Below, piece after piece: positions 16,927 through 27,441 of a stretch of DNA of 50,714 nucleotides. Positions within the stretch are counted from its first letter, which is position 1; each line of letters begins with the position of its first letter. This DNA comes from Bryobacterales bacterium (GTDB taxonomy: Bacteria > Acidobacteriota > Terriglobia > Bryobacterales > Bryobacteraceae), in the NCBI GenBank assembly GCA_003136575.1, contig PLEX01000171.1, positions 45,767 through 96,480 on the forward strand, given 5' to 3'. The notes under the pieces are model-generated. The model saw nothing but the letters and a program-made list of their open reading frames with translations, was not told where the DNA came from and made no database searches. The translations under genes were made by a program, and so were the position numbers.

Positions 16927-18959
16927 CAGATACGATGGAACGCACGCAGGATCTCCCGCATTCCGTATTGCAGCGCTACCGGACGCCCGTGCGGACATGC
17001 CATCGGATACTCGGTCGCGGCGAGCGTCCGCAGCATCCAATCCATCTTCTTGTGGTCGAGCGGCGTGTTGATCTTGATCGCCGCGCGGCACGCCAGCGAC
17101 GCCGCGATGCCGCGCCGCAGGTCCGAAACGGATACCCCGCGCAGTTCTTCTTCGGCGATCTCCAGGACTTCGAAGATCACTCGCTCGATATCGCCATGCC
17201 CCAGCGCGGCAGGCACGGCTTTCACCGCGATCGTCCGGTTGCCGAACGGTTCGGTGTCAAAGCCCGACGCGCGCAATTCGTCTTCGATCCGTGCATATTC
17301 GATCTGCTGCTCGGGCGTCAGCTGCAGAATCGCGGGCATCAGCAATTGCTGCATTTCCACCCTTCCCGACGCCTGCTGGGCAAGGATCTGCTCGAACAGG
17401 ATACGCTCGTGCGCGACGTGCTGGTCGACGATCCACAACCCGTCGCGCCCCGCCGCAATGATGAAGCTGTTGTGCAGCTGGCCCAGCGGCCGCAGATCGC
17501 CGATGTTGGCCATAGAGCCCGCGCCCGCCATTCGGTTTTCCCCCGGAATGGCGTCCATGGGAAATCCGCCATGGGTATCCGGCACACGCAGCTTCAGAGG
17601 ATCTGCCGTAGTTCGCGCCGCCGCGGGTCCCGGCGCTGCCGCTTCCGGTTCCATCGGTATTCCGCCGCCAGTGAAATCGAAACGCGCGGCGGGCGGATGG
17701 GGAGGATGCAGAACAAACTCCGGTGCGGCCGAATCGTTTTGCAGCATCTGCGAAAACTCGGAGTAAGGCAGCGTCGCCGCCGGCTGCGGGTTCGGGCTGA
17801 AGTCCGGCGCGGATTGCGGAATCGAGCTCAAATCGGGCTCCGACTGATGATTCGGGCCAAAACCAGCGGCGGACAGCGGGTTCGCGCCGAAGTTCGGCGC
17901 GGGACGCGGATTCGGGCTGAAGCTGGGCGCGGGCCGAGACTGCATCAGTTGATCCCGCACGGCGTCGCGGACAAAATCGTGCACCAGCGACTGATGCCGG
18001 AAGCGCACCTCCGTCTTCGACGGGTGCACGTTTACGTCGACCTCTTCGCAATCGCAATCGAGAAAGAGCAATGCGAAGGGGAAGCAGGCCGGCGGCATCA
18101 GGTTGTGATAAGCCGCCGAGAGCGCGTGCAGAATGAGCCGGTCGCGAATGAGACGCCCGTTCACGAAAATGAAGATCGAGTTGCGGTTGTTCTTCTGCAC
18201 CTGCGGGCGCGAGACAAAGCCGCGCACGGCGTAACGCTTCGGCTGTTCGCCCGGTTCCTCTGCGGGGACTAGCTTTTCGCGCTCCGCGAGTTCGATCAGA
18301 TCTTCGAGGAGTTGGCTGCCGAACACCTGAAAAACGCGTTCCCGCAACGTGGCGACCGGCGTCGCATGGAGCAGATTCGCTCCTCCGCTCCGGAGTTCGA
18401 AGGTCTTATCGGGATGCGCCAGGCTGTAGTGCGTGACGAGCGACGCGATGTGCGCCGTCTCGGTCTGTTCGGAGCGCAGGAACTTCTTTCGGGCCGGAAC
18501 GTTGAAGAACAGGTCGCGGACTGCAATGGCGGTTCCCGTGCCACGCGCGATTTCTTCGCAGGACACGATCTTCCCGCCCGCGATTTCGACGCGCATGCCG
18601 GTCTGCTCGTCCGTCGAGCGGGTTTCGAGAAGCAACCGCGATACGGATGCAATCGAAGGCAGAGCTTCGCCCCGGAACCCGAGGGTTGCGATCGAGAGCA
18701 GATCCTTCACGTCGTGCAGTTTGCTGGTGGCGTGGCGTTCGAAGGCGAGAAGGGCGTCGTCGCGAATCATTCCACAGCCATCGTCGGCGATGCGGATGAG
18801 CCGCCTGCCGCCGGTTTCGATCTCGATGCGGATGTTCGTCGCGCCGGCGTCGAGAGAGTTTTCGAGGAGTTCCTTGACTACGGATGCCGGGCGTTCGACG
18901 ACCTCGCCGGCGGCGATTTGGTTGGCGACCTTGTCGGAAAGAACCTGGATGCGGCCCAC
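16926..18959 (-). CDS. mutL: DNA mismatch repair protein MutL
   Basis: A 677-residue GHKL ATPase. N-terminal motifs are VVKELLENSLDAGA, IADDGCGM and FRGEALPSIASVS, followed by the transducer domain with NVHPSKTEVRF. A long flexible linker (about residues 335-480) holds a 30-bp tandem repeat. The C-terminal domain has VDQHVAHERILFE, close to the DQHA(x)2E(x)4E endonuclease motif with V for A, plus SLACRAAIK and CPHGRP, the ACR and CPHGRP motifs of endonuclease-type MutL. It therefore probably nicks DNA itself, as expected in an organism lacking MutH (inference). The stop overlaps the kdsC start. Confidence 0.95.
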   Translation of the reverse strand: MGRIQVLSDKVANQIAAGEVVERPASVVKELLENSLDAGATNIRIEIETGGRRLIRIADDGCGMIRDDALLAFERHATSKLHDVKDLLSIATLGFRGEALPSIASVSRLLLETRSTDEQTGMRVEIAGGKIVSCEEIARGTGTAIAVRDLFFNVPARKKFLRSEQTETAHIASLVTHYSLAHPDKTFELRSGGANLLHATPVATLRERVFQVFGSQLLEDLIELAEREKLVPAEEPGEQPKRYAVRGFVSRPQVQKNNRNSIFIFVNGRLIRDRLILHALSAAYHNLMPPACFPFALLFLDCDCEEVDVNVHPSKTEVRFRHQSLVHDFVRDAVRDQLMQSRPAPSFSPNPRPAPNFGANPLSAAGFGPNHQSEPDLSSIPQSAPDFSPNPQPAATLPYSEFSQMLQNDSAAPEFVLHPPHPPAARFDFTGGGIPMEPEAAAPGPAAARTTADPLKLRVPDTHGGFPMDAIPGENRMAGAGSMANIGDLRPLGQLHNSFIIAAGRDGLWIVDQHVAHERILFEQILAQQASGRVEMQQLLMPAILQLTPEQQIEYARIEDELRASGFDTEPFGNRTIAVKAVPAALGHGDIERVIFEVLEIAEEELRGVSVSDLRRGIAASLACRAAIKINTPLDHKKMDWMLRTLAATEYPMACPHGRPVALQYGMREILRAFHRI
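17791..17940 (-). repeat. 30-bp tandem repeat in the MutL linker
   Basis: Five consecutive 30-bp units with boundaries at 17791, 17821, 17851, 17881 and 17911. Each encodes ten residues of the type RPAPSFSPNP, RPAPNFGANP, LSAAGFGPNH, QSEPDLSSIP, QSAPDFSPNP. Units are degenerate but in register, and the 30-bp period preserves the frame, so copy number could vary without inactivating MutL. Confidence 0.85.
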
Positions 18960-20136
18960 GTCATTACTCTAAGCCAAGGGCCGAGGCGGGTGGGACGGTG
19001 TCCGCGGGAAGTCGGCGGCTACGCCGACATCGCCCGCTCCAACCCCTCGCATGCGGCGGCGACTCCATCTTCCCTCGCCATTTCCCGCGCAACTGCGGAC
19101 GCGGCGTCGCGGCAACGGTGGTCCGCCAGCAACCCGGACAACTCCCTGGCAACCCTGGCGGCCCGGTATCGACTCCGCGGCACCACTCTCGCCACCCCCA
19201 GCCCCTTGCATCGCCGCGCGTAATCCGGCTGATCGTGACTGAACGGTACGACGCACATCGGCACGCCGGCGCGCAAAGCCTGCCCTGTGGTTCCAGCGCC
19301 TCCCTGATGAACCACCGCTGCGGCTCGCGGGAACAACTCCGAAAACGGCTCGTATTCCGACGTAATTATGCCATCGGGCAACGACGCCGACGGCTGGTTT
19401 CGCGGGTCGCGGCCAATCAGAAGCACAGCGCGGCACCCCGCCGCATTCGCAGCCTTCACGCTTTCTTCGTAAAACTCTCCGGCGTCAAACACGGCGGAAG
19501 ACCCCAGCGTGAATACCACTGGCGGCGGTCCCGCGTCGAGAAAGCTCGCCACTTTCGCGCTGAGTCCCTTTCCTGGTGTGAGTTTGTCGTAGAACGGAAA
19601 GCCGGTGATCGAGGTCTTGGTCGGCCAATCGGCCTGCGGAGCTGCCAGGACCTTCGAGAACCATGCCTGGGTCCCCCACGGCGAGAACATGTCGTCGAGC
19701 AGCGGATTTCGCACCTCCGGGATTTCCGCCTTACGGCGGAACAAGTTGATCGGATCGCCCCACGGGCGCGCGGCTCGCCGCGCTTGCCCCCGGAACCAAT
19801 TCCAGAATCCAGGTCCCCAACCCCGAAACCACTCGAGAAAAGGATACCCGGATACCGTTGGCGGATCGAAGGCGGAAAGCATCGCCGAAGGCTGCAACAC
19901 AACCGAGATCCATCGCTTCCCCAGAATCTCCGCGACAATCGGCGCGGCAAACGAAATCGGGTGGCCCACGATCAGATCCGCCTCGCGCGAAATCCCGGAA
20001 AGATCCGCATACGATTGCTCCAGATATGGCAGCATCATGCTGCGGATGACGTATTCGCTGCCCGTGCGCGGATGGAAGGCGCGAGAGACGACGGCGGGAT
20101 CGCGAATGAGCAGACCCAGATCCGGTCGGACGGGGT

Positions 20137-20144
20137 GAAAATTC
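20137..20144. repeat. 8-bp target site duplication, left copy
   Basis: GAAAATTC directly abuts the left inverted repeat. The identical octamer abuts the right end at 23133-23140. Eight base pairs is the usual duplication length for the IS1595 family. Confidence 0.9.
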
Positions 20145-20169
20145 GGTAAATATATATTTGACTCAGAAA
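20145..20169 (+). repeat. Left terminal inverted repeat
   Basis: It begins GGTAAATATATA, then T, then TTGACTCAGAAA. It matches the inverted right end at 24 of 25 positions, the mismatch being position 13 (T here, G on the right). Confidence 0.95.
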
Positions 20170-20187
20170 CGGTGCCCGCGATATGAT
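20158..20187 (+). promoter_or_regulatory. Sigma-70-like promoter of the passenger gene, -35 inside the left repeat
   Basis: TTGACT (20158-20163), an 18-bp spacer and TATGAT (20182-20187). Transcription would start near 20194. The ATG at 20183 is part of this -10 box, which rules it out as start codon for this transcript and points to ATG 20216. Confidence 0.65.
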
Positions 20188-20215
20188 TGTCTGGCGCGGG
20201 GAGCGCAACAGTCTT

Positions 20216-21910
20216 ATGCCAGTCGTGGAGTTCGAAAAGGAAACAATCGGCGGCGCGCTGATGAACAAAAAACACCTCTGCGTGCCGATCAATCAGCGGT
20301 CTTACGCGTGGAAAAAAGAACATGTTGAAGACCTGTATTCTGACCTCAATGGAGCTATCGACAACGGCCATGACGAGTATTTTCTCGGCGCGGTTATCGT
20401 GGTGGTCCACGGCGGCAAAGAAGGCATTGAGGTATATGACGGGCAGCAGCGCCTGGCAACTTGCATGATGTTAATATCCGCGATCAGGGACTACTTCCAT
20501 AAAGCGAACGACAAGGACACCGCCAAGACCATCGCGAGTGAATTTCTGAGTTCTCCTGAGCGCAAGACCAATACACAACGGTCGCATTTCACGTTGAGCG
20601 CCGAAGACAATCAGTTTTTCATTGACCGGATAATTCTTGGGCCTGACGATCCAAAGCGCAAATCAGCGAAGGCAGACCCTCAGAAGGTATCTCATGCCCG
20701 CATTGAGGCCGGAGCAAAAATTGCAGCCGATCACATAACAGCTATCACCAAAAAGAAGCACGCAACCGACAAGGCAAAACTACTGCATCGCTGGCTCGAT
20801 TTTCTGGAGAATGGAGCGCGTGTCATCTGGGTGGAGGTAGAAGATCGGCCCACCGCATACCGAATCTTCGAGACTATGAATGACCGTGGCCTGAAATTGT
20901 CAGCCGCCGATCTCATTAAAACCTATCTATACTCTCTTGCTGGTAAGCGCGAAACCGAAGTGGTCCAGAAGTGGCAATCAATGACTGGAACCCTGGAATC
21001 CCTCGGTAAAGAAGACGGCGACCTGGTTGATTACATCAGGTATTTTTGGGTGACAACTCACGGGAAAACCAGAAACAACGAACTGTTTGACGCCCTCAAG
21101 AATGAGGTTAACAGTGAGGCTACCGTTGCGAGATGGGTAAATAAACTAGAATCGCGGGCCAATGATTATGCGGCCATACTAACGGCTTCGCATCAGGCAT
21201 GGATTGGCTATCACAAAGAAGTCCGAGCGGCCATTGAAACCATTCGTTACCTTGGCGTCAGTCAGATCAGACCGCTACTACTAGCTGCTCTTGGTACTTT
21301 TACCAAGGGAGAAATGGAAAAGCTCCTGAAACTCTCAGTTAACTGGTCTGTTCGATGTCTCCTGTCGGACATTTCAAGTAACTACCTTGAAGACAACTAC
21401 AGTAAAGCCGCAAAAGGAATAGCGGACGGCGCGCTAAAAAACGTTAGGGATTTAAGCAAGGAACTCGTCAACCTCATTCCGTCCGACGAGCGCTTTGAGG
21501 CGGCTGTCAGTGTAACGACCGTGCAGACCGCTTCGTTGGCGCGGTATTACCTGCGAAGAATTCAGATGGAGGCTGATGGAAAGGTCGAACCACAATACGT
21601 GCCAAACGACGGTATAGCGGTCACGTTGGAGCACGTCTTGCCACAGAACCCCGGCAAGGGCTGGTCGATGTCAGCGATTGACGTTAAGACATACTACAAT
21701 CGGCTTGGTAATCAAGCACTGCTGGCCGGTTCCGTTAACTCAAGACTTAATAATGACGATTTCAAGGTCAAGAGACCAGCACTAGCGAAGTCTGAGTTTA
21801 GCCTAACTAGTTCAATCGGAGCACTTCACCAATGGGGAGCAACAGAAATCTCTGATAGACAAAAACTTCTCGCATCCCACGCAGTGAAGGCGTGGCCGCT
21901 TGCGATATGA
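20216..21910 (+). CDS. DUF262-DUF1524 (GmrSD-like) putative anti-phage nuclease
   Basis: A 564-residue protein. ATG 20216 is chosen because GGGGAG lies about 12 bases upstream and the earlier ATG sits in the -10 box. The N-terminal DUF262 (ParB/Srx-like NTPase) module shows VPINQRSYAWKKEHVEDLYS, FLGAVIVV and the hallmark VYDGQQRLAT (Asp at residue 75), then FETMNDRGLKLSAADLIKTY. The C-terminal DUF1524 HNH-type nuclease shows LEHVLPQ (His at residue 473), YNRLGNQALL and NSRLNNDDF. Relatives with this layout (GmrSD, BrxU, SspE) use nucleotide hydrolysis to control cleavage of modified or phosphorothioated DNA in phage defence. The target here is unknown and no partner gene of a known system is adjacent. 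It is the cargo of the surrounding transposon. Confidence 0.85.
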   Translation: MPVVEFEKETIGGALMNKKHLCVPINQRSYAWKKEHVEDLYSDLNGAIDNGHDEYFLGAVIVVVHGGKEGIEVYDGQQRLATCMMLISAIRDYFHKANDKDTAKTIASEFLSSPERKTNTQRSHFTLSAEDNQFFIDRIILGPDDPKRKSAKADPQKVSHARIEAGAKIAADHITAITKKKHATDKAKLLHRWLDFLENGARVIWVEVEDRPTAYRIFETMNDRGLKLSAADLIKTYLYSLAGKRETEVVQKWQSMTGTLESLGKEDGDLVDYIRYFWVTTHGKTRNNELFDALKNEVNSEATVARWVNKLESRANDYAAILTASHQAWIGYHKEVRAAIETIRYLGVSQIRPLLLAALGTFTKGEMEKLLKLSVNWSVRCLLSDISSNYLEDNYSKAAKGIADGALKNVRDLSKELVNLIPSDERFEAAVSVTTVQTASLARYYLRRIQMEADGKVEPQYVPNDGIAVTLEHVLPQNPGKGWSMSAIDVKTYYNRLGNQALLAGSVNSRLNNDDFKVKRPALAKSEFSLTSSIGALHQWGATEISDRQKLLASHAVKAWPLAI

Positions 21911-21933
21911 AGATGGCATAATGGCAACAGAAT

Positions 21934-22119
21934 ATGAAACATTCCCGACACGAAACAGCCTTCCTAAATCTGGTGGACAGTGTTCTCGGTATGTCGAAAG
22001 AAGAACTAAATCGACGCGAAGCGGAGTACAGACAAAGCGTAGATGCCAACCCGCGAAGGCGCGGGCCGAAACGAAAAGCGGTCAAGCCGCCTTCCGCTTC
22101 CCACGCCCCTGCCTCTTAG
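21934..22119 (+). CDS. Small basic protein in the transposon
   Basis: A 61-residue frame 23 bases after the passenger stop, ending 4 bases into the convergent transposase 3' end. An N-terminal helix (HETAFLNLVDSVLGMSKEELNRREAEY) is followed by a basic, proline-rich tail (ANPRRRGPKRKAV). The layout, a short helix with KEELNRREAEY then RRGPKRK, resembles small conserved hypothetical proteins found beside accessory genes in many bacteria, but I cannot name a family. No clear ribosome-binding site is visible, so translation may be coupled to the passenger gene or may not occur. Confidence 0.45.
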   Translation: MKHSRHETAFLNLVDSVLGMSKEELNRREAEYRQSVDANPRRRGPKRKAVKPPSASHAPAS

Positions 22120-23084
22120 AAGTCGTCTGCGACTGCTTCACGCCTTTTAGCCTCCTTCGCGATCAACTCGTCATATGTCAAGCGCTTTCCGGTAATCTTC
22201 GTGCAAAGCAATTCGAATCGCTCCGCGTCCGTCATGTCCTTTCGATTGTTGTAGCGAAAAACCTGTTCATCGACGTACCGAAACAGGTGAAACGGTTCGA
22301 CCGAAACATACGTTCCCTTCAGCCCACGCTTGAGCAGCGCCCAAAAGTTCTCCATCCCGTTGGTGTGAATCTGACCGTTGACGTAAGTCTCAGCATGGTT
22401 GATGACCTGATGAGTGTACTCGTCAAGCCCTTCGTAGGACTTCAACTCATCGCTATAGACGGTCGATCCAGCTTCAACGTGTTCGCGCACGTGAGCCTGA
22501 ATAGCGGGCTTGCGCCGGTTCGGTACGACCGTGGCGCGTACTTCGCCGTGGCGCTCCAAAACAGCGGAGACGATAGCCTTGCCGAAGTTGTCCAGTTGGC
22601 GATTCTTGTCACGCTTGCCTTGGTGCATATTTCGCGCCTTGCCACCGATGTAAGTTTCGTCCGCTTCAATCTCACAACCGGGTCCACCAATCTTGCCGCC
22701 TGTGGTTTCATCCTGCATGGCGTACCGAATGCGATGGAGCATGAACCACGCCGTCTTTTGAGTTACGCCAAGATCGCGGGCTACTTCGCAACTGGAGATT
22801 CCGTTCTTGCAACCGGAAAGCAACCAGATGATCGGCAGCCACTTGTCGAGACCGAGGGGCGAGTCCTCAAGGATCGTGCCAGTCTTAACACTGAACTGAG
22901 ACTTGGGGTGCTTCGTCTTGCACTGCCACATGCGGCGGGTCGCCATAAACGCCACGTCTTTACGCCCGCATGTAGGACACGTAACGCCGTCCTTCCAGCG
23001 CCGTTCTGCCAGGAATTTCAGGCAGTTGTCAACGTTGCTAAAGTACTGAACGGATTGGATAAAGGTCTGAGGAAAGCTTCCCAT
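22116..23084 (-). CDS. IS1595-family transposase (ISXO2-like DDE)
   Basis: A 322-residue transposase. The N-terminal zinc ribbon has CPTCG and a second partly matching element in WQCKTKHP. Next is the helix-turn-helix-like SSCEVARDLGVTQKTAWFML, then the ISXO2 catalytic domain: EIEADETYIGG (first Asp), VYSDELKSYEG (second Asp) and HTNGMENFWALLKRGLKGTY (the N-x-x-E block). All catalytic residues appear present and the frame is intact. ATG 23084 lies 6-7 bases after the -10 box, so the mRNA may be leaderless. It acts on the 25-bp terminal repeats of this element and makes 8-bp duplications. Confidence 0.9.
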   Translation of the reverse strand: MGSFPQTFIQSVQYFSNVDNCLKFLAERRWKDGVTCPTCGRKDVAFMATRRMWQCKTKHPKSQFSVKTGTILEDSPLGLDKWLPIIWLLSGCKNGISSCEVARDLGVTQKTAWFMLHRIRYAMQDETTGGKIGGPGCEIEADETYIGGKARNMHQGKRDKNRQLDNFGKAIVSAVLERHGEVRATVVPNRRKPAIQAHVREHVEAGSTVYSDELKSYEGLDEYTHQVINHAETYVNGQIHTNGMENFWALLKRGLKGTYVSVEPFHLFRYVDEQVFRYNNRKDMTDAERFELLCTKITGKRLTYDELIAKEAKRREAVADDF

Positions 23085-23090
23085 GAACTA

Positions 23091-23119
23091 ATTATATAGG
23101 AGGTTGCTTTCTGAGTCAA
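23091..23119 (-). promoter_or_regulatory. Sigma-70-like promoter of the transposase, -35 inside the right repeat
   Basis: Minus strand: TTGACT (23119-23114), a 17-bp spacer, TATAAT (23096-23091). Consensus -10 and optimal spacing make this the strongest promoter match seen in the window. The ATG follows 6 bases after the -10, which predicts a leaderless transcript. Confidence 0.75.
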
Positions 23120-23132
23120 CTATATATTTACC
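23108..23132 (-). repeat. Right terminal inverted repeat
   Basis: Read inward on the minus strand it begins GGTAAATATATA, then G, then TTGACTCAGAAA, matching the left end at 24 of 25 positions. Confidence 0.95.
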
Positions 23133-23140
23133 GAAAATTC
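23133..23140. repeat. 8-bp target site duplication, right copy
   Basis: GAAAATTC, identical to 20137-20144, directly outside the right inverted repeat. Confidence 0.9.
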
Positions 23141-23286
23141 AGCCCCTCGCCCTCCACTTTGACGCGGTAGACCTCCGAAGTCCCGATGGTAACCCGGTGA
23201 CCGCGAGAGCGGAGTCCCAGGCCAACCGCGATGTAGGGATGCAGATCGCCCAGCGATCCGAACGTCGTCAGCAGTAAATGGGCCAT

Positions 23287-23601
23287 TGGTGTAAACATCA
23301 TCTTACGTCGGCGAATGGGCGACCGGCGGGGTCTCCACCGATCTCGCTCGCGCAGGACACGCGGGACGGCGTAATTTGCGCGACGGTTGGGGACATCTCG
23401 GGCGACATGGCGTTTGAGGGGCGCCATCAGGAGCGATCCGGCCGAGCCGGCTCTCCGGAAGCCGCACGGACCGGCCGCGCCGCCCGGCTGAAACAGATGC
23501 TTCCGGGCTCCTTGCCGCCGTTCACCGAATCCCGATGCCTTGCGTTTCCAACGGCCGGAATCGGCCCTTCCCGATTCCCGGCCTGTTACCATAGCACTTG
23601 A
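23287..23601. other. Divergent intergenic region, glycosyltransferase / gmd
   Basis: 315 bases separate the disrupted glycosyltransferase start from gmd. Frames continue open here on both strands but are arginine-rich and carry no recognisable motif. The region presumably holds promoters for both directions; none was clear by eye. Confidence 0.5.
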
Positions 23602-24645
23602 ATGAAAACTGCACTCATTTCCGGTATTACCGGCCAGGATGGCTCATATCTGGCGGAATTCCTCCTGGCGAACGGGTACGCTGTTCACGGTATCGTTCGC
23701 CGGACTTCCTCGTTTAATACGGATCGAATCGATCACCTTTACGCAGACCCCCACGTTCCCAGCCGGCTTCATCTTCATTACGGGGACCTGGCCAGCGCGG
23801 CGCGTCTTCGCCACCTGATGGAGGTGATCCAGCCCGATGAAATTTACAATCTCGGCGCCCAGTCTCACGTTCGCGTCAGTTTCGACGAGGCCGAGTACAC
23901 AGCCGACGTAGTGGCAACCGGCACGCTTCGATTGCTGGAGGCGTTCCGGGACTACTCGAAGCAATCGGGCAGCCAGCCCCGCTTTTATCAGGCCAGTTCA
24001 TCGGAAATGTTCGGCGCGTCGCCCCCTCCTCAGACCGAGAACACGCCATTCTATCCCCGCAGTCCCTACGCCTGCAGCAAGGTCGCGGCGCACTGGTACT
24101 CGGTAAACTTCCGGGAAGCGTACAACCTTTTCGTTTCCAGCGGCATTCTGTTCAACCACGAATCGCCCCGTCGCGGCGAAACCTTTGTTACGCGCAAGAT
24201 TACGCGGGCGCTGGGGCGAATCCGCATGGGCCTCCAGGATAAGCTCTACCTGGGGAATCTCGATTCGCGGCGCGACTGGGGCCACGCAGCGGATTTTGTC
24301 CGCGCCATGTGGATGATGCTTCAGCATTCCGTACCGGAGACATTCGTCGTGGCAACCGGAGAAAGCTATTCGGTTCGCGAGTTTCTGGATGTTGCTTCCG
24401 AATACGCTGAAGTCGACTGGCGAAAGCATGTCGAATTCGATGCCCGGTACCTTCGGCCGACGGAAGTCGATTCGCTTTGCGGCGATTCGTCGAAGGCGCG
24501 CCAGTTGCTGGGCTGGAAACCGGAAATCGGCTTCAGGGATTTGGTAAAGTCCATGGTCGATGGCGATATCGAACTGGCCCGGCAGGAACTGACTCTCGCC
24601 GGAGCCGGACATACGGTGTCCCGCCGCGGCGGCGTGTATGGCTGA
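23602..24645 (+). CDS. gmd: GDP-mannose 4,6-dehydratase
   Basis: A 347-residue extended short-chain dehydrogenase converting GDP-D-mannose to GDP-4-keto-6-deoxy-D-mannose, the first step to GDP-L-fucose and related deoxysugars. The NADP-binding [19 protein letters not shown], the [15 protein letters not shown] loop, [13 protein letters not shown], the catalytic [15 protein letters not shown] (Tyr and Lys) and [20 protein letters not shown] are all typical of Gmd. The length matches the family. The next gene starts 8 bases before the stop, so the two enzymes are likely produced together. The cytoplasmic product feeds surface-polysaccharide synthesis with the flanking glycosyltransferases. Confidence 0.95.
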
Positions 24646-25648
24646 AACGGAAGTCGATAGGACGAAGTCCATCGCCGAGCCGGAAGGCCGGCGCGAGATG
24701 CCGCTCGCCGCGCGGGTATACGTGGCGGGCCATCGAGGTCTGGTTGGATCCGCCATTGTCCGTCGGTTGCGCAGGAGTGGTTACAATAACCTTCTGCTGC
24801 CCTCCAGCGGCGAACTGGATTTACGCGAGCAGCGGGCGGTAAAGGATTTTTTTGCCCGGCAACGCCCCGATTACGTATTTTTAGCGGCCGCCAGAGTCGG
24901 CGGGATTCTGGCTAACTCAACCCAGCCGGCCGAGTTTCTCTACGACAACCTGGCGATCCAGACGAACGTGATTGACGCGGCATGGCGCAACGGCGTCGTC
25001 AAGCTGCTCTTTCTCGGCTCCTCCTGTATTTACCCCAAATTCGCTCCGCAGCCGATCCGCGAGGAGAGCCTTTTGACCGGCTCCCTCGAGCCGACGAACG
25101 AAGCCTACGCGATCGCCAAGATAGCAGGCATGAAGCTGGCGCAAGCCTATCGGACGCAGTATGGGTTTCCGACGATCAGTCTGATGCCTACGAATCTGTA
25201 CGGACCGGGCGACAACTTTCATCCCGAAAAATCTCACGTTCTGCCTGCCTTGGTCCGCCGTTTTCACGAGGCAGTCGTCTCCGGAGCACGGGAAGTGGTC
25301 CTTTGGGGCACCGGCACGCCACGCCGGGAATTTCTCCATGTGGACGACCTCGCCGACGCTGCATGTTTCGCAATGGAACGGTACGATGCCGGGGAACCGG
25401 TTAACGTCGGCACCGGTGAGGATCTTACTATTGCGGAACTGGCGGAAATGGTGGCCCGCACCGTGGGCTACAGGAACGAGATTCGCTTCGACGCAACGAA
25501 ACCTGATGGCACGCTGCGGAAGCTGCTGGATGTCTCCAGGCTCGCGGCGATGGGTTGGCGCGCGCGAATCGGTTTAGCCGACGGTCTGGAGTCTACCTAC
25601 GCATGGTATCGGGAACAAATGGCAAGTACCGCGACTGAAAAAGCATAA
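24638..25648 (+). CDS. fcl: GDP-L-fucose synthase
   Basis: A bifunctional 3,5-epimerase/4-reductase that turns the Gmd product into GDP-L-fucose. Visible motifs are the dinucleotide-binding [44 protein letters not shown] and catalytic [19 protein letters not shown] (Tyr-x3-Lys), followed by [23 protein letters not shown] 24638 overlaps the gmd end; the conserved protein begins near ATG 24698, so the first 20 residues could be an extension or the later ATG the true start. Length is 336 or 316 residues, the latter being closer to typical Fcl. Confidence 0.95.
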
Positions 25649-25730
25649 AGAAGCCCGAAGAATCCCCGCCGGCATTGCCTGCGTGACGGACGGTCTCGCC
25701 GGACTCCGAAATAATGCGTCAGTGCGCCGC

Positions 25731-26975
25731 CTAGCCGTTTTGGGGGATTCTGGCACGCTTGCCGCGATTGGCACTGGTCAGCAGCGATGCGGTTTCCCAC
25801 ACAGCGCCCTCGCGCAGCGCGGCGGCAACACGGGCAGCCCCGACCGAACGCTGGTAATGATCCACGAACGCCTTGTAGGCCCGTTCGCCGGCCGCGTAGA
25901 CCAGTTCCTTATTCGCATTGAGGCGGCGCAGAAGGCTTACGAGGCCATCCACGTCGCCGCAATCGACCTGCCACCCGCATCCGTAACGCTCAATCATCAG
26001 CGCCGTCGTGGACTGCCGCGGGCCAATGAAAAGCACCGGCCGCCCCGCGGCCATAATGCCGTAAGACTTGCTTGGAACCACCGCTCCGATCGAGGCGGCG
26101 TGTTGCGTCACAAGACCGATATCCCCGGACGCCAACCTCGCTCTTAACTCGTCGCGTTCGCAGTACGGGAGAAATTGCGCGTTGCCCAAAGCATGCTCTT
26201 CGCAGAAGCTCCTGATCCACGACTGCTGCGAACCTCCGCCGCCAAAAATAAACTGAAAGCCACTGCCGGTTCCGTTCAGCGCTGCCATTGCGCCGGCGAC
26301 GGTCTCAACATCGTGCGCGCGGCCGAAATTGCCTGAGTAGACGATTGAAAGGCCTGCTGAACGGATCGCCGGCGGAGGCTCAACGGGCGAGAGACGGGCG
26401 TCGCAATCCGCCCAATTTTCCGATACAAATATCCTTTTCCCGTCCAGTCCGTGAGACAACAGCCGGGTTCTCATGCATTCTCCCAGCACGATCACTCGGT
26501 CGGCGTGGCGCCGCGGCAAATCCGCCAGCCAGGCTAATATTCTCGTGGTCAGGCCGGGCTTCAGCATTCCCAGATCCAGCGCAATGTCGGGATAAACATC
26601 CATTTCCCAGATCACGTGTTTAGCTCCGCGTATTTTCTGGATTGCCATGCCAACCAGGGAAATAAAAGGTGGAGTCGTCAGCGTTACCACCACATCGGGC
26701 GCCGGACGCCGCAATCCCTGCCAAAGCGAGCCGCCGAGAAAAGTCACATAGGAGCGAATTCGCCCGTGGATGCTTGCGGAAAACTTCGCCGTCTGGAGCC
26801 GGGTGATATCGACGGCCGGGGCAGGCGCCGTGTTGGCTCCGCCATAATTCGCCGAACCGCAAATCACCTCAACGGATTCGCCTGAGCCGACGAGATATTC
26901 CGCCACGTCCGACAGCAACTGGCCCGTAGCTGCCGTGTCCGGCCAAAAAAACTGATTCAGAAACAATATGCGCAT
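25731..26975 (-). CDS. GT4-family glycosyltransferase (WbuB-like)
   Basis: A 414-residue GT-B glycosyltransferase. The N-domain starts MRILFLNQFFWPDTAATGQL and continues with EVICGSANYGG and HVIWEMDVYPDIALDLGM, the DVYP motif of fucosyl/N-acetylaminosugar transferases of the WbuB type. The C-domain has SIVYSGNFGRAHDVE, FIFGGGGSQQSWI, LPYCERDELRARLASGDIGL and PSKSYGIMAAGRPVLF with the donor-binding acidic region. ATG 26975 is preferred over GTG 26978 because GAGAG lies 8 bases upstream. With gmd-fcl convergent next to it, GDP-fucose or another deoxysugar is a plausible donor (inference). Confidence 0.85.
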   Translation of the reverse strand: MRILFLNQFFWPDTAATGQLLSDVAEYLVGSGESVEVICGSANYGGANTAPAPAVDITRLQTAKFSASIHGRIRSYVTFLGGSLWQGLRRPAPDVVVTLTTPPFISLVGMAIQKIRGAKHVIWEMDVYPDIALDLGMLKPGLTTRILAWLADLPRRHADRVIVLGECMRTRLLSHGLDGKRIFVSENWADCDARLSPVEPPPAIRSAGLSIVYSGNFGRAHDVETVAGAMAALNGTGSGFQFIFGGGGSQQSWIRSFCEEHALGNAQFLPYCERDELRARLASGDIGLVTQHAASIGAVVPSKSYGIMAAGRPVLFIGPRQSTTALMIERYGCGWQVDCGDVDGLVSLLRRLNANKELVYAAGERAYKAFVDHYQRSVGAARVAAALREGAVWETASLLTSANRGKRARIPQNG

Positions 26976-27441
26976 CACCGGCTCTCATGTCTCCCACAAG
27001 TAATTCGATACCCGGAACTCGGAGCTTCCGGAACCAGCGGGCAACTGCAAGCCTCGTGCGCGTTATGCAGGCAACCTGGCGCGCCTGACGAAAAGTCAGT
27101 CTCCTTCATGCCTCCTCCGTATACGCAGTTTCTAAACTTCATGGTGTTGGCCAACTTCAACACTCCGAAACTTGTCGCAAAATAGAAGTTTAGTACGGAA
27201 TAGCGGCTAAAGCAATAGTACTATGAGTACTTAAACCTTCTCCGGTACCGGGACGTCTGTATCGTTTATTACGGCTAGCAGGGTTGCCTGGAGGGCACTG
27301 TTCCGCTAACTTAGTATTGGGTGGAGGCGGGGACCAACCACTCGATGATCGTCAACTCGATTGGCCTTGTACCAACGCATCTCCGGTTTTTATAGAAGCG
27401 ACGCTCCTGCGTCGATATGCTCCTTTGGAGGACGGACGGTA
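26976..27441. other. Divergent regulatory region, GT4 / TPR lipoprotein
   Basis: 466 bases between divergent starts, AT-rich in the middle (27170-27240). It holds two copies of the palindrome AGTACT at 27217 and 27226 separated by ATG, with a further AGTAC at about 27192. A 62-codon minus-strand frame (27163-26975) ends in a TGATG overlap with the GT4 start but has no recognisable motif. No other gene is supported. Confidence 0.5.
27217..27231. promoter_or_regulatory. Paired AGTACT palindromes
   Basis: AGTACT-atg-AGTACT: two self-complementary hexamers with centres 9 bp apart in an AT-rich divergent intergenic region, suggestive of an operator. No known regulator consensus is matched with confidence. 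Confidence 0.3.

Follow-up and report, generated by a model that had tools for sequence, protein, structure and literature searches.

An IS1595-family cargo transposon with a DUF262-DUF1524 nuclease gene belongs to a group of elements with a constant core and changing cargo

Positions 20145-23132 of the window, a 50,714-nucleotide stretch of a Bryobacterales genome, carry a 2,988-bp element of the insertion sequence (IS) family IS1595. We consider it probable that this is a recent insertion of a compact cargo transposon, with a slot from which cargo would be expressed and, within it, a nuclease that would protect the host. The element has matching ends, a target-site duplication, an interrupted host gene and an intact transposase, and it belongs to a group in which the transposase and a small open reading frame (ORF) stay constant and the cargo changes. 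The original prediction described a simple IS that moves a single anti-phage gene. Every delimited copy has space for cargo, and the cargo varies from copy to copy; the element is therefore not built around the nuclease.

Borders, target site and transposase

Re-examination returned the predicted borders, with 25-bp terminal inverted repeats that agree at 24 of 25 positions and a perfect 8-bp duplication, GAAAATTC (Table 1). A duplication of this length is the rule for the IS1595 family, whose subgroups include ISNwi1 and ISPna2. The source genome, 83% complete, comprises 6.6 Mb in 242 contigs. When three mismatches are allowed, the end pattern has four matches in it, at both ends of two elements, and a reversed control pattern has none, which makes a chance origin of the ends very unlikely. 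Joining the flanks by script at one copy of GAAAATTC restores a 423-codon glycosyltransferase frame, which is collinear from end to end (64-73% identity, 0-1 gaps) with the intact copies in the five genus relatives compared; the gene has a match in 15 of 18 other genomes of the genus. Both glycosyltransferase halves are still open, so that the insertion is probably recent. The G+C content is 51% in the element and 60-62% in the remainder of the window.

The transposase is of the IS1595/ISXO2-like DDE type, in agreement with the prediction, and has an N-terminal zinc ribbon (PF12762, E 3.6e-37; PF12760, E 9.3e-10; NCBIfam IS1595, E 5.6e-52, with 176.7 bits for NF033547 against a cut-off of 75).

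Table 1. Features of the element and its insertion site (window coordinates)
Feature	Position	Strand	Details and basis
IS1595-family element	20145-23132		2,988 bp; ends and target duplication
Left target-site duplication GAAAATTC	20137-20144		exact 8/8 match to 23133-23140
Right target-site duplication GAAAATTC	23133-23140		
Cargo-end terminal inverted repeat	20145-20169	+	24/25 to other end; same end type in sibling C141
Transposase-end terminal inverted repeat	23108-23132	-	24/25 to cargo end
Predicted cargo promoter	20158-20187	+	-35 TTGACT inside repeat, 18 bp, -10 TATGAT
Passenger, DUF262-DUF1524 protein of HEC-06 kind, 564 amino acids (aa)	20216-21910	+	Pfam, PADLOC, DndI match, catalytic residues; likely start
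Small ORF, 61 codons	21934-22119	+	tail-to-tail with transposase; constant core part in 113/117 elements; no Pfam or NCBIfam family
IS1595-family transposase, 322 aa, intact frame	22116-23084	-	Pfam, NCBIfam
Predicted transposase promoter	23091-23119	-	-35 TTGACT in repeat, 17 bp, -10 TATAAT; start codon 6 nt on
Interrupted glycosyltransferase gene, C-terminal part	19019-20144	-	
Interrupted glycosyltransferase gene, N-terminal part	23141-23286	-	

Cargo turnover between near-identical cores

IS1595 transposases match at 14 places in the source genome, spread over 12 contigs, and the only other site with the ends of the window element is C141:830-3775, so that a genome-wide search for these ends did find them around other cargo. 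The C141 transposase is 95% identical to that of the window element. The two elements have 1,200 bp of DNA in common on the transposase side (85.75% identity) and about 45 bp at the cargo end (82.6%), with nothing in common between. The ratio of nonsynonymous to synonymous substitution between them is low, at 0.033 for the transposase and 0.038 for the small ORF (59 codons, crude counting). The repeat that flanks C141 reads 6 bp, not 8. Its cargo is a DUF262 protein (NsnA, E 2.9e-56; PD-T4-2_A, E 2.5e-50) adjoining a PF18735 HEPN protein (E 1.4e-7). PD-T4-2 consists of this pair, a DUF262 protein A and a PF18735 HEPN protein B, according to the available text of a review (PMC10952713), and by composition the C141 cargo would be such a system, with the NsnA model scoring slightly higher. 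The C141 DUF262 gene has no DNA match in E. coli genomes.

The same pattern recurs across the group. Among 6,786 pairs of delimited elements (see below), 32 have transposases that are at least 80% identical. Their DNA is alike over the transposase and its end, a stretch that often reaches about 1.0-1.2 kb, and in one pair (L176/L190) over the whole element. Sixteen of the 31 other pairs, including all ten with transposases at least 90% identical, also match at the far end (21-73 bp), and in these 16 the cargo DNA between the matching ends has no match. At the protein level (E<1e-6 over at least 60 aa, among stretches of 80 aa or more), 26 of the 32 pairs have no cargo ORF in common; the six that do are the whole-element pair, one pair at 24% identity and four in which the match spans 60-71 aa and may correspond to the small ORF. 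Cargo is shared by 1.5% of pairs whose transposases are 45-50% identical, and by 18-19% of those above 80%. L172 has no cargo in common with L176 or L190, to which its transposase is 98-99% identical. These pairs raise the mechanistic question of how cargo changes while both ends and the core stay. Capture through a chance second end seems unlikely, because the far ends of the closest pairs keep their own end type; our guess is that cargo is exchanged between the ends during transposition or repair.

A group of elements with a two-gene core

Searches with the transposase matched 43 of 101 genomes of relatives, the source genome included, at 1e-40 (60 regions taken), gave at least 572 confirmed matches in GTDB, of which the best 80 were used, and gave 103 confirmed matches in IMG/VR (79 loci). 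Elements were delimited by ends agreeing at 15 or more of 20 positions and a duplication at 7 or more of 8. This delimited 101 of the 156 matches in the GTDB and IMG/VR sets whose transposase aligned over at least 200 aa at 44% identity or more and, with relatives and the source genome at the same identity cut-off, 117 distinct elements, counting L014 (6-bp repeat) and L058 (no duplication), which were delimited by hand. They measure 1,599-6,052 bp, of which the transposase gene takes about 0.97 kb, and by a longest-ORF rule the transposase is accompanied by an ORF of 80 aa or more in all 117. Neither these elements nor the 65 transposase matches left undelimited (24 with an end pair lacking a duplication, 27 near the end of the available sequence, 14 with no pair) include a clear cargo-free copy. 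One of the 24 is below 1.5 kb (L247, 1,458 bp, ends 15/20) and is a weak cargo-free candidate. The hosts of 78 of the 80 named loci bear names that we take to be those of Acidobacteriota; the other two are titled Deltaproteobacteria (L196) and Acidimicrobiia (L140), and the L140 genome is placed in the family of the window genome.

The small ORF, the third gene of the window element, was missing from the original prediction. Built up from nine seeds, an iterated profile matches in 113 of the 117 elements, and the flanks, 756 kb in all, gave five matches. The elements being counted also served to train the profile, an objection to which the flank control is a partial answer. The encoded proteins (median 54 aa) have 27% lysine plus arginine, 40% in the last 20 residues, and a motif F..l...l..V(P/S)(K/H).E followed by a basic tail. 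In 76 elements the ORF starts less than 250 bp past the transposase end (a script count that includes overlapping and upstream ORFs), and in 23 it lies within 500 bp of the far end. No Pfam family was found for nine sequences scanned (best E 0.018, under the cut-off), no NCBIfam family for 54 (best E 0.0099, an archaeal SRP19 model) and no PDB fold for the predicted model, which forms two helices in a hairpin with a loose tail (mean predicted local distance difference test score, pLDDT, 80). The source genome has eight strong copies and one weak one; seven of the eight share a contig with an IS1595 transposase or a fragment of one, and the eighth is on a 3.7-kb contig with a DUF3800-like gene.

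The passenger nuclease

The gene between the ends of the window element is unrelated to transposition. Its longest frame begins at 20183 (20183-21910, + strand), but since that ATG falls in the predicted -10 box of the cargo promoter, the ATG at 20216 is the likelier start, which corrects the predicted one. The protein had been called GmrSD-like. A Pfam search found both DUF262 (PF03235, GmrSD_N, E 5.3e-31) and DUF1524 (PF07510, GmrSD_C, E 5.2e-21) over the curated cut-offs, joined in one protein as in the type IV enzymes GmrSD and BrxU; the name thus fits the domains, but among solved proteins DndI (PDB 9JFL, E 4.5e-16) comes closest. Domain order, the DGQQR motif and the His, Asn and Asn of the HNH motif are common to DndI and the passenger; these residues are retained in an alignment with relatives, in agreement with the prediction, and were placed on the DndI numbering by manual count on the DndI alignment. 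Among PADLOC models, HEC-06 matches over its full length (E 2.7e-160; residues 15-572 on model positions 7-556 of 558), with Orf5, SspE and the type IV model scoring below it, so that the passenger, unlike GmrSD and BrxU, is nearer to HEC-06 and Orf5 than to type IV. HEC denotes a candidate class first seen within Hma loci.

The available text on DndI (PMC11662687) describes an ATPase-nickase that spares phosphorothioated DNA and is part of IscS-DndBCDE-DndI; phage protection was weakened by R87A and abolished by N541A, the Y25A mutant could neither sense nor protect, and the enzyme is toxic in phosphorothioate-deficient cells. The equivalent of Tyr25 in the passenger is Asn (in VPINQR), and among its relatives this position is Asn in three, Tyr in one and Phe in two. 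DndC has no match in the 83%-complete genome; other dnd and ssp genes were not searched. The link to phosphorothioate defence that had been proposed is thus weak. By analogy, the passenger is expected to cut in a modification-dependent manner like GmrSD or BrxU, or to sense another mark, and we infer an anti-phage activity. The GmrSD type is characterised by NTP-dependent cleavage of DNA with hydroxymethyl- or glucosyl-cytosine.

Relatives of the passenger occur in 11 plasmid records at 1e-30 (at most 38% identical) and two Listeria phage records at 1e-20 (24% identical); none was confirmed in viral contigs, where the scan covered close relatives only. Neither the transposase (1e-70) nor the DNA of the element has a match in plasmids. 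With no such match and only distant plasmid and phage relatives of the passenger, carriage by a plasmid or phage was rejected.

Predicted promoters in the terminal repeats

The repeats carry a predicted -35 box at both ends. Within positions 12-20 of the ends, TTGAC is present on the transposase side in 99 of the 117 elements and on the far side in 61. Promoter statistics were taken on the 102 elements with the transposase beside its end, against 300 base shuffles. At the transposase end, a -10 box of at least 4/6 lies 16-18 bp inside in 89 elements (shuffles: mean 14.4, maximum 25). In 53 of the 102, the -10 box is 6 nt ahead of the first ATG, which predicts a leaderless transposase message. 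At the far end, a -10 box of this quality is present in 45 elements (shuffles: mean 8.3, maximum 17), and an inward ORF of at least 120 codons starts within 160 nt in 75. If the repeats supply the -35 box at both ends, any content of the slot could be transcribed.

The word GTGACAGG lies 36-53 bp inside the far end of 18 of the 102 elements (L016, L018, L070, L076, L079, L206, L224 and 11 more). The transposase ends of the 102 elements lack it, a single copy lies in 149 kb of element middle, and the window element has none. Judging by this placement, the word is a subterminal site of a subset of elements.

Cargo content

Cargo was sampled as the longest ORF of each element plus any differing codon-scored ORF, some of which are possibly spurious. 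Among the 140 ORFs selected, Pfam (E 1e-4) matched DUF3800 in 12, GmrSD_N in five, DUF4145 in three, and D12 methylase, GmrSD_C, DUF1828 and PAPS reductase in two each; other families matched once. For DUF3800, an RNase H fold is predicted and a link to a branch of Cas12a2 is described (PMC10910872). By Rfam gathering scores, no DUF3800 RNA motif was found in the window or in 16 element-bearing loci.

DUF262 genes occur in three layouts at eight loci, six of them delimited elements and two not (L126, L178). The DUF262-DUF1524 layout is found in the window, in L127 and, as a C-terminal part, in L178, where the gene order is that of the window (transposase, small ORF, HEC-06-type gene). HEC-06-type cargo is therefore not a one-off, and confinement of the nuclease to a single copy, which the original prediction had named among the grounds for its refutation, does not hold. 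DUF262 with HEPN is found in L014 and L197, in either case with both genes, and DUF262-HNH in L061, L126 and L168, the latter two with a match in two pieces. HEC-06 relatives without an IS1595 transposase in the DNA examined (for L122 and L123, 1.5 kb on each side) are 38-39% identical to the window gene over the C-terminal part, compared with 37% for L178. Because these are equally near, several captures of HEC-06 genes seem as likely as common descent; in a tree of the passenger, the IS-borne HEC-06 genes neither cluster nor are proven separate.

Other elements of the source genome carry a Fic protein (C138), a HEPN-like protein by reading (C233, no Pfam match over the cut-off) and a protein read as membrane-bound (C234). 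C217 cargo reads as DUF3800-like, between ends that agree at 20/20 without a duplication, and a C139 element of another subgroup has trypsin-like cargo with a Pfam match just below the cut-off.

By single linkage, which can chain, cargo families recur in groups of 35 and 19 elements; the larger includes DUF3800 carriers, and the smaller (e.g., L144, L160, L174) is unnamed. PAPS reductase-like cargo is present in the IMG/VR elements L265:5932-6822 and L269:5126-6034; PF01507 and PADLOC SspD matched two cargo ORFs each, probably these. L159 and L198 pair a ParB-like gene with a D12-like adenine methylase (by eye), and the two cargo ORFs matched by PADLOC PD-Lambda-5_A are probably the ParB-like ones.

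Favoured explanation and alternatives

We favour the following arrangement. A mobility core of about 1.2 kb comprises a terminal repeat, the transposase and the small basic protein, which we infer helps transposition; a second 25-bp repeat closes the far side of the cargo slot, and the repeats would contribute the -35 box of a promoter at each end. The cargo, a DUF262 nucleoside triphosphatase joined to a DUF1524 HNH nuclease, would tell foreign from own DNA by chemical modification, as DndI, BrxU and GmrSD do, and then cut or nick it. By protecting its host from phages or rival elements, the transposon would maintain itself.

Several observations weigh against this explanation. No significant association was seen between the far-end -10 box and the presence of an inward ORF (p 0.11, 102 elements). 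Codon scoring accepts no cargo ORF of at least 80 aa in 18 of the 117 elements, although the scoring is too strict and missed an ATPase gene in L069. At most 48 of the 140 cargo ORFs have any Pfam match, and much cargo has no known domain. The 32 turnover pairs fall into 13 linked groups and are therefore not independent. Relatives of the passenger are rare (2 of 395 other sampled genomes of the phylum at E<=1e-60; 4 of 100 relatives at 1e-30) and are only 27-41% identical, so that target specificity is not transferable to it, and its structure model is unusable (3-row alignment, pLDDT 41). PADLOC (1e-10) matched 128 models in the 140 cargo ORFs and 125 in 111 of 115 flanking ORFs, the four longest being left out, a crude comparison in that the controls are longer (median 423 versus 283 aa) and models rather than proteins were tallied. 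With no excess over the flanks, this comparison does not support the idea that the group as a whole is a defence vehicle, which we set aside.

The lack of a PADLOC excess also suits the strongest competitor, an explanation to which we give a minor but real chance: that the group captures random DNA and the nuclease is merely the catch of this copy, with no protection needed. That most cargo ORFs lack a Pfam family, and many encode proteins of no known kind, fits neutral freight as well. Random capture does not readily account for the recurrence of cargo families in the two large groups, linkage chaining aside, for DUF262 genes in three layouts at eight loci with DUF262 plus HEPN twice complete, or for a window passenger that is full length and retains all catalytic motifs. 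It is rather improbable that the nuclease serves as an addiction or incompatibility device that harms or excludes unmarked DNA and so keeps out sister or rival elements, not phages. The toxicity of DndI in phosphorothioate-deficient cells would agree with such a role, as would other cargos of toxin-antitoxin or cell-death kind (Fic, HEPN, SocA/Panacea), but no modification or antidote gene was recognised in the window element, DndC was not found in the incomplete genome, and the window element and its C141 sibling coexist in one genome.

Least credible, and in our view very improbable, is that both siblings stem from one DUF262-bearing transposon whose cargos diverged without exchange. Both cargos do start with a DUF262 domain at the same end. 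However, the DUF262 proteins of two elements with 95% identical transposases have no BLASTP match (E<1e-3) and differ in layout; the C141 pair is 49-53% identical to that of L197, whose transposase is only 57% identical; and divergence would leave L172 unexplained, which differs in cargo from L176 and L190 despite near-identical transposases.

Relation to known systems

Transporter IS were reportedly described by Siguier et al. in 2009. In the texts available, IS with passengers bear this name, and IS1595 is a founding case (PMC3129680, PMC5704250, PMC12888890). MTnSag1/tISSag10 and tISCpe8, a lincomycin resistance element, resemble the window element in the IS1595 transposase, 25-bp inverted repeats, target duplication and internal passengers, and both are mobilizable (PMC5704250, as far as the available text goes). 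In contrast to them, no mobilization gene was recognised in the window element, and its group varies cargo among near-identical cores and has a conserved small ORF. Tn7-like transposons also carry defence-like cargo, according to the accessible part of PMC8649781, whereas the group described here has one DDE transposase, one small ORF and one to a few cargo genes within 1.6-6 kb. The PD-T4-2 gene pair stands side by side in the C141 sibling, inside an IS1595 transposon, and is not the cargo of the window element. Titles and abstract openings among the literature matches listed, in which subscription journals are thinly covered, describe no IS1595 defence cargo, cargo turnover or small ORF. IS1595 elements with passengers being already known, the apparent novelty lies in the small ORF and in a core that stays fixed while cargo turns over rapidly.

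More broadly, though with somewhat less than even confidence, we suggest a class of miniature cargo-exchange transposons. A two-gene core (the transposase and a near-universal helix-hairpin protein) and a distant promoter-bearing end of 25-30 bp would form an expression slot, with content that turns over much more quickly than the core changes. Such elements would be an Acidobacteriota counterpart of integron cassettes, shuttling conflict systems of one or two genes (DUF262, HEPN, Fic, DUF3800, Panacea, methylases) together with numerous unknown genes. They would offer a concrete route for defence systems of one or two genes to travel individually, without a phage, plasmid or island. They may also offer a way to find new systems: the slot is delimited to the base by the ends, the duplication and the constant core, and most slot contents have no known domain.

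Genomic neighbourhood and further observations

Translations of the neighbours at 17000-27000, read by eye, are those of sugar-nucleotide, glycosyltransferase and mutL-like genes. No defence cluster was seen among them by eye, the neighbours not having been scanned with PADLOC or another library; this agrees with the predicted location outside a defence island.

An Acido-Lenti-1 RNA, barely over the Rfam gathering score, lies near an element at L137 2394-2441. A second IS1595 subgroup with ends like GGGGATTATATAC occurs in another family of the same order (L085, L096, L099, L104, L100). Genes read as DNA methylase-HNH fusions adjoin its transposase, it has a different recurrent small ORF (YQPSxAEL), and L100 has two copies with a shortened gene.

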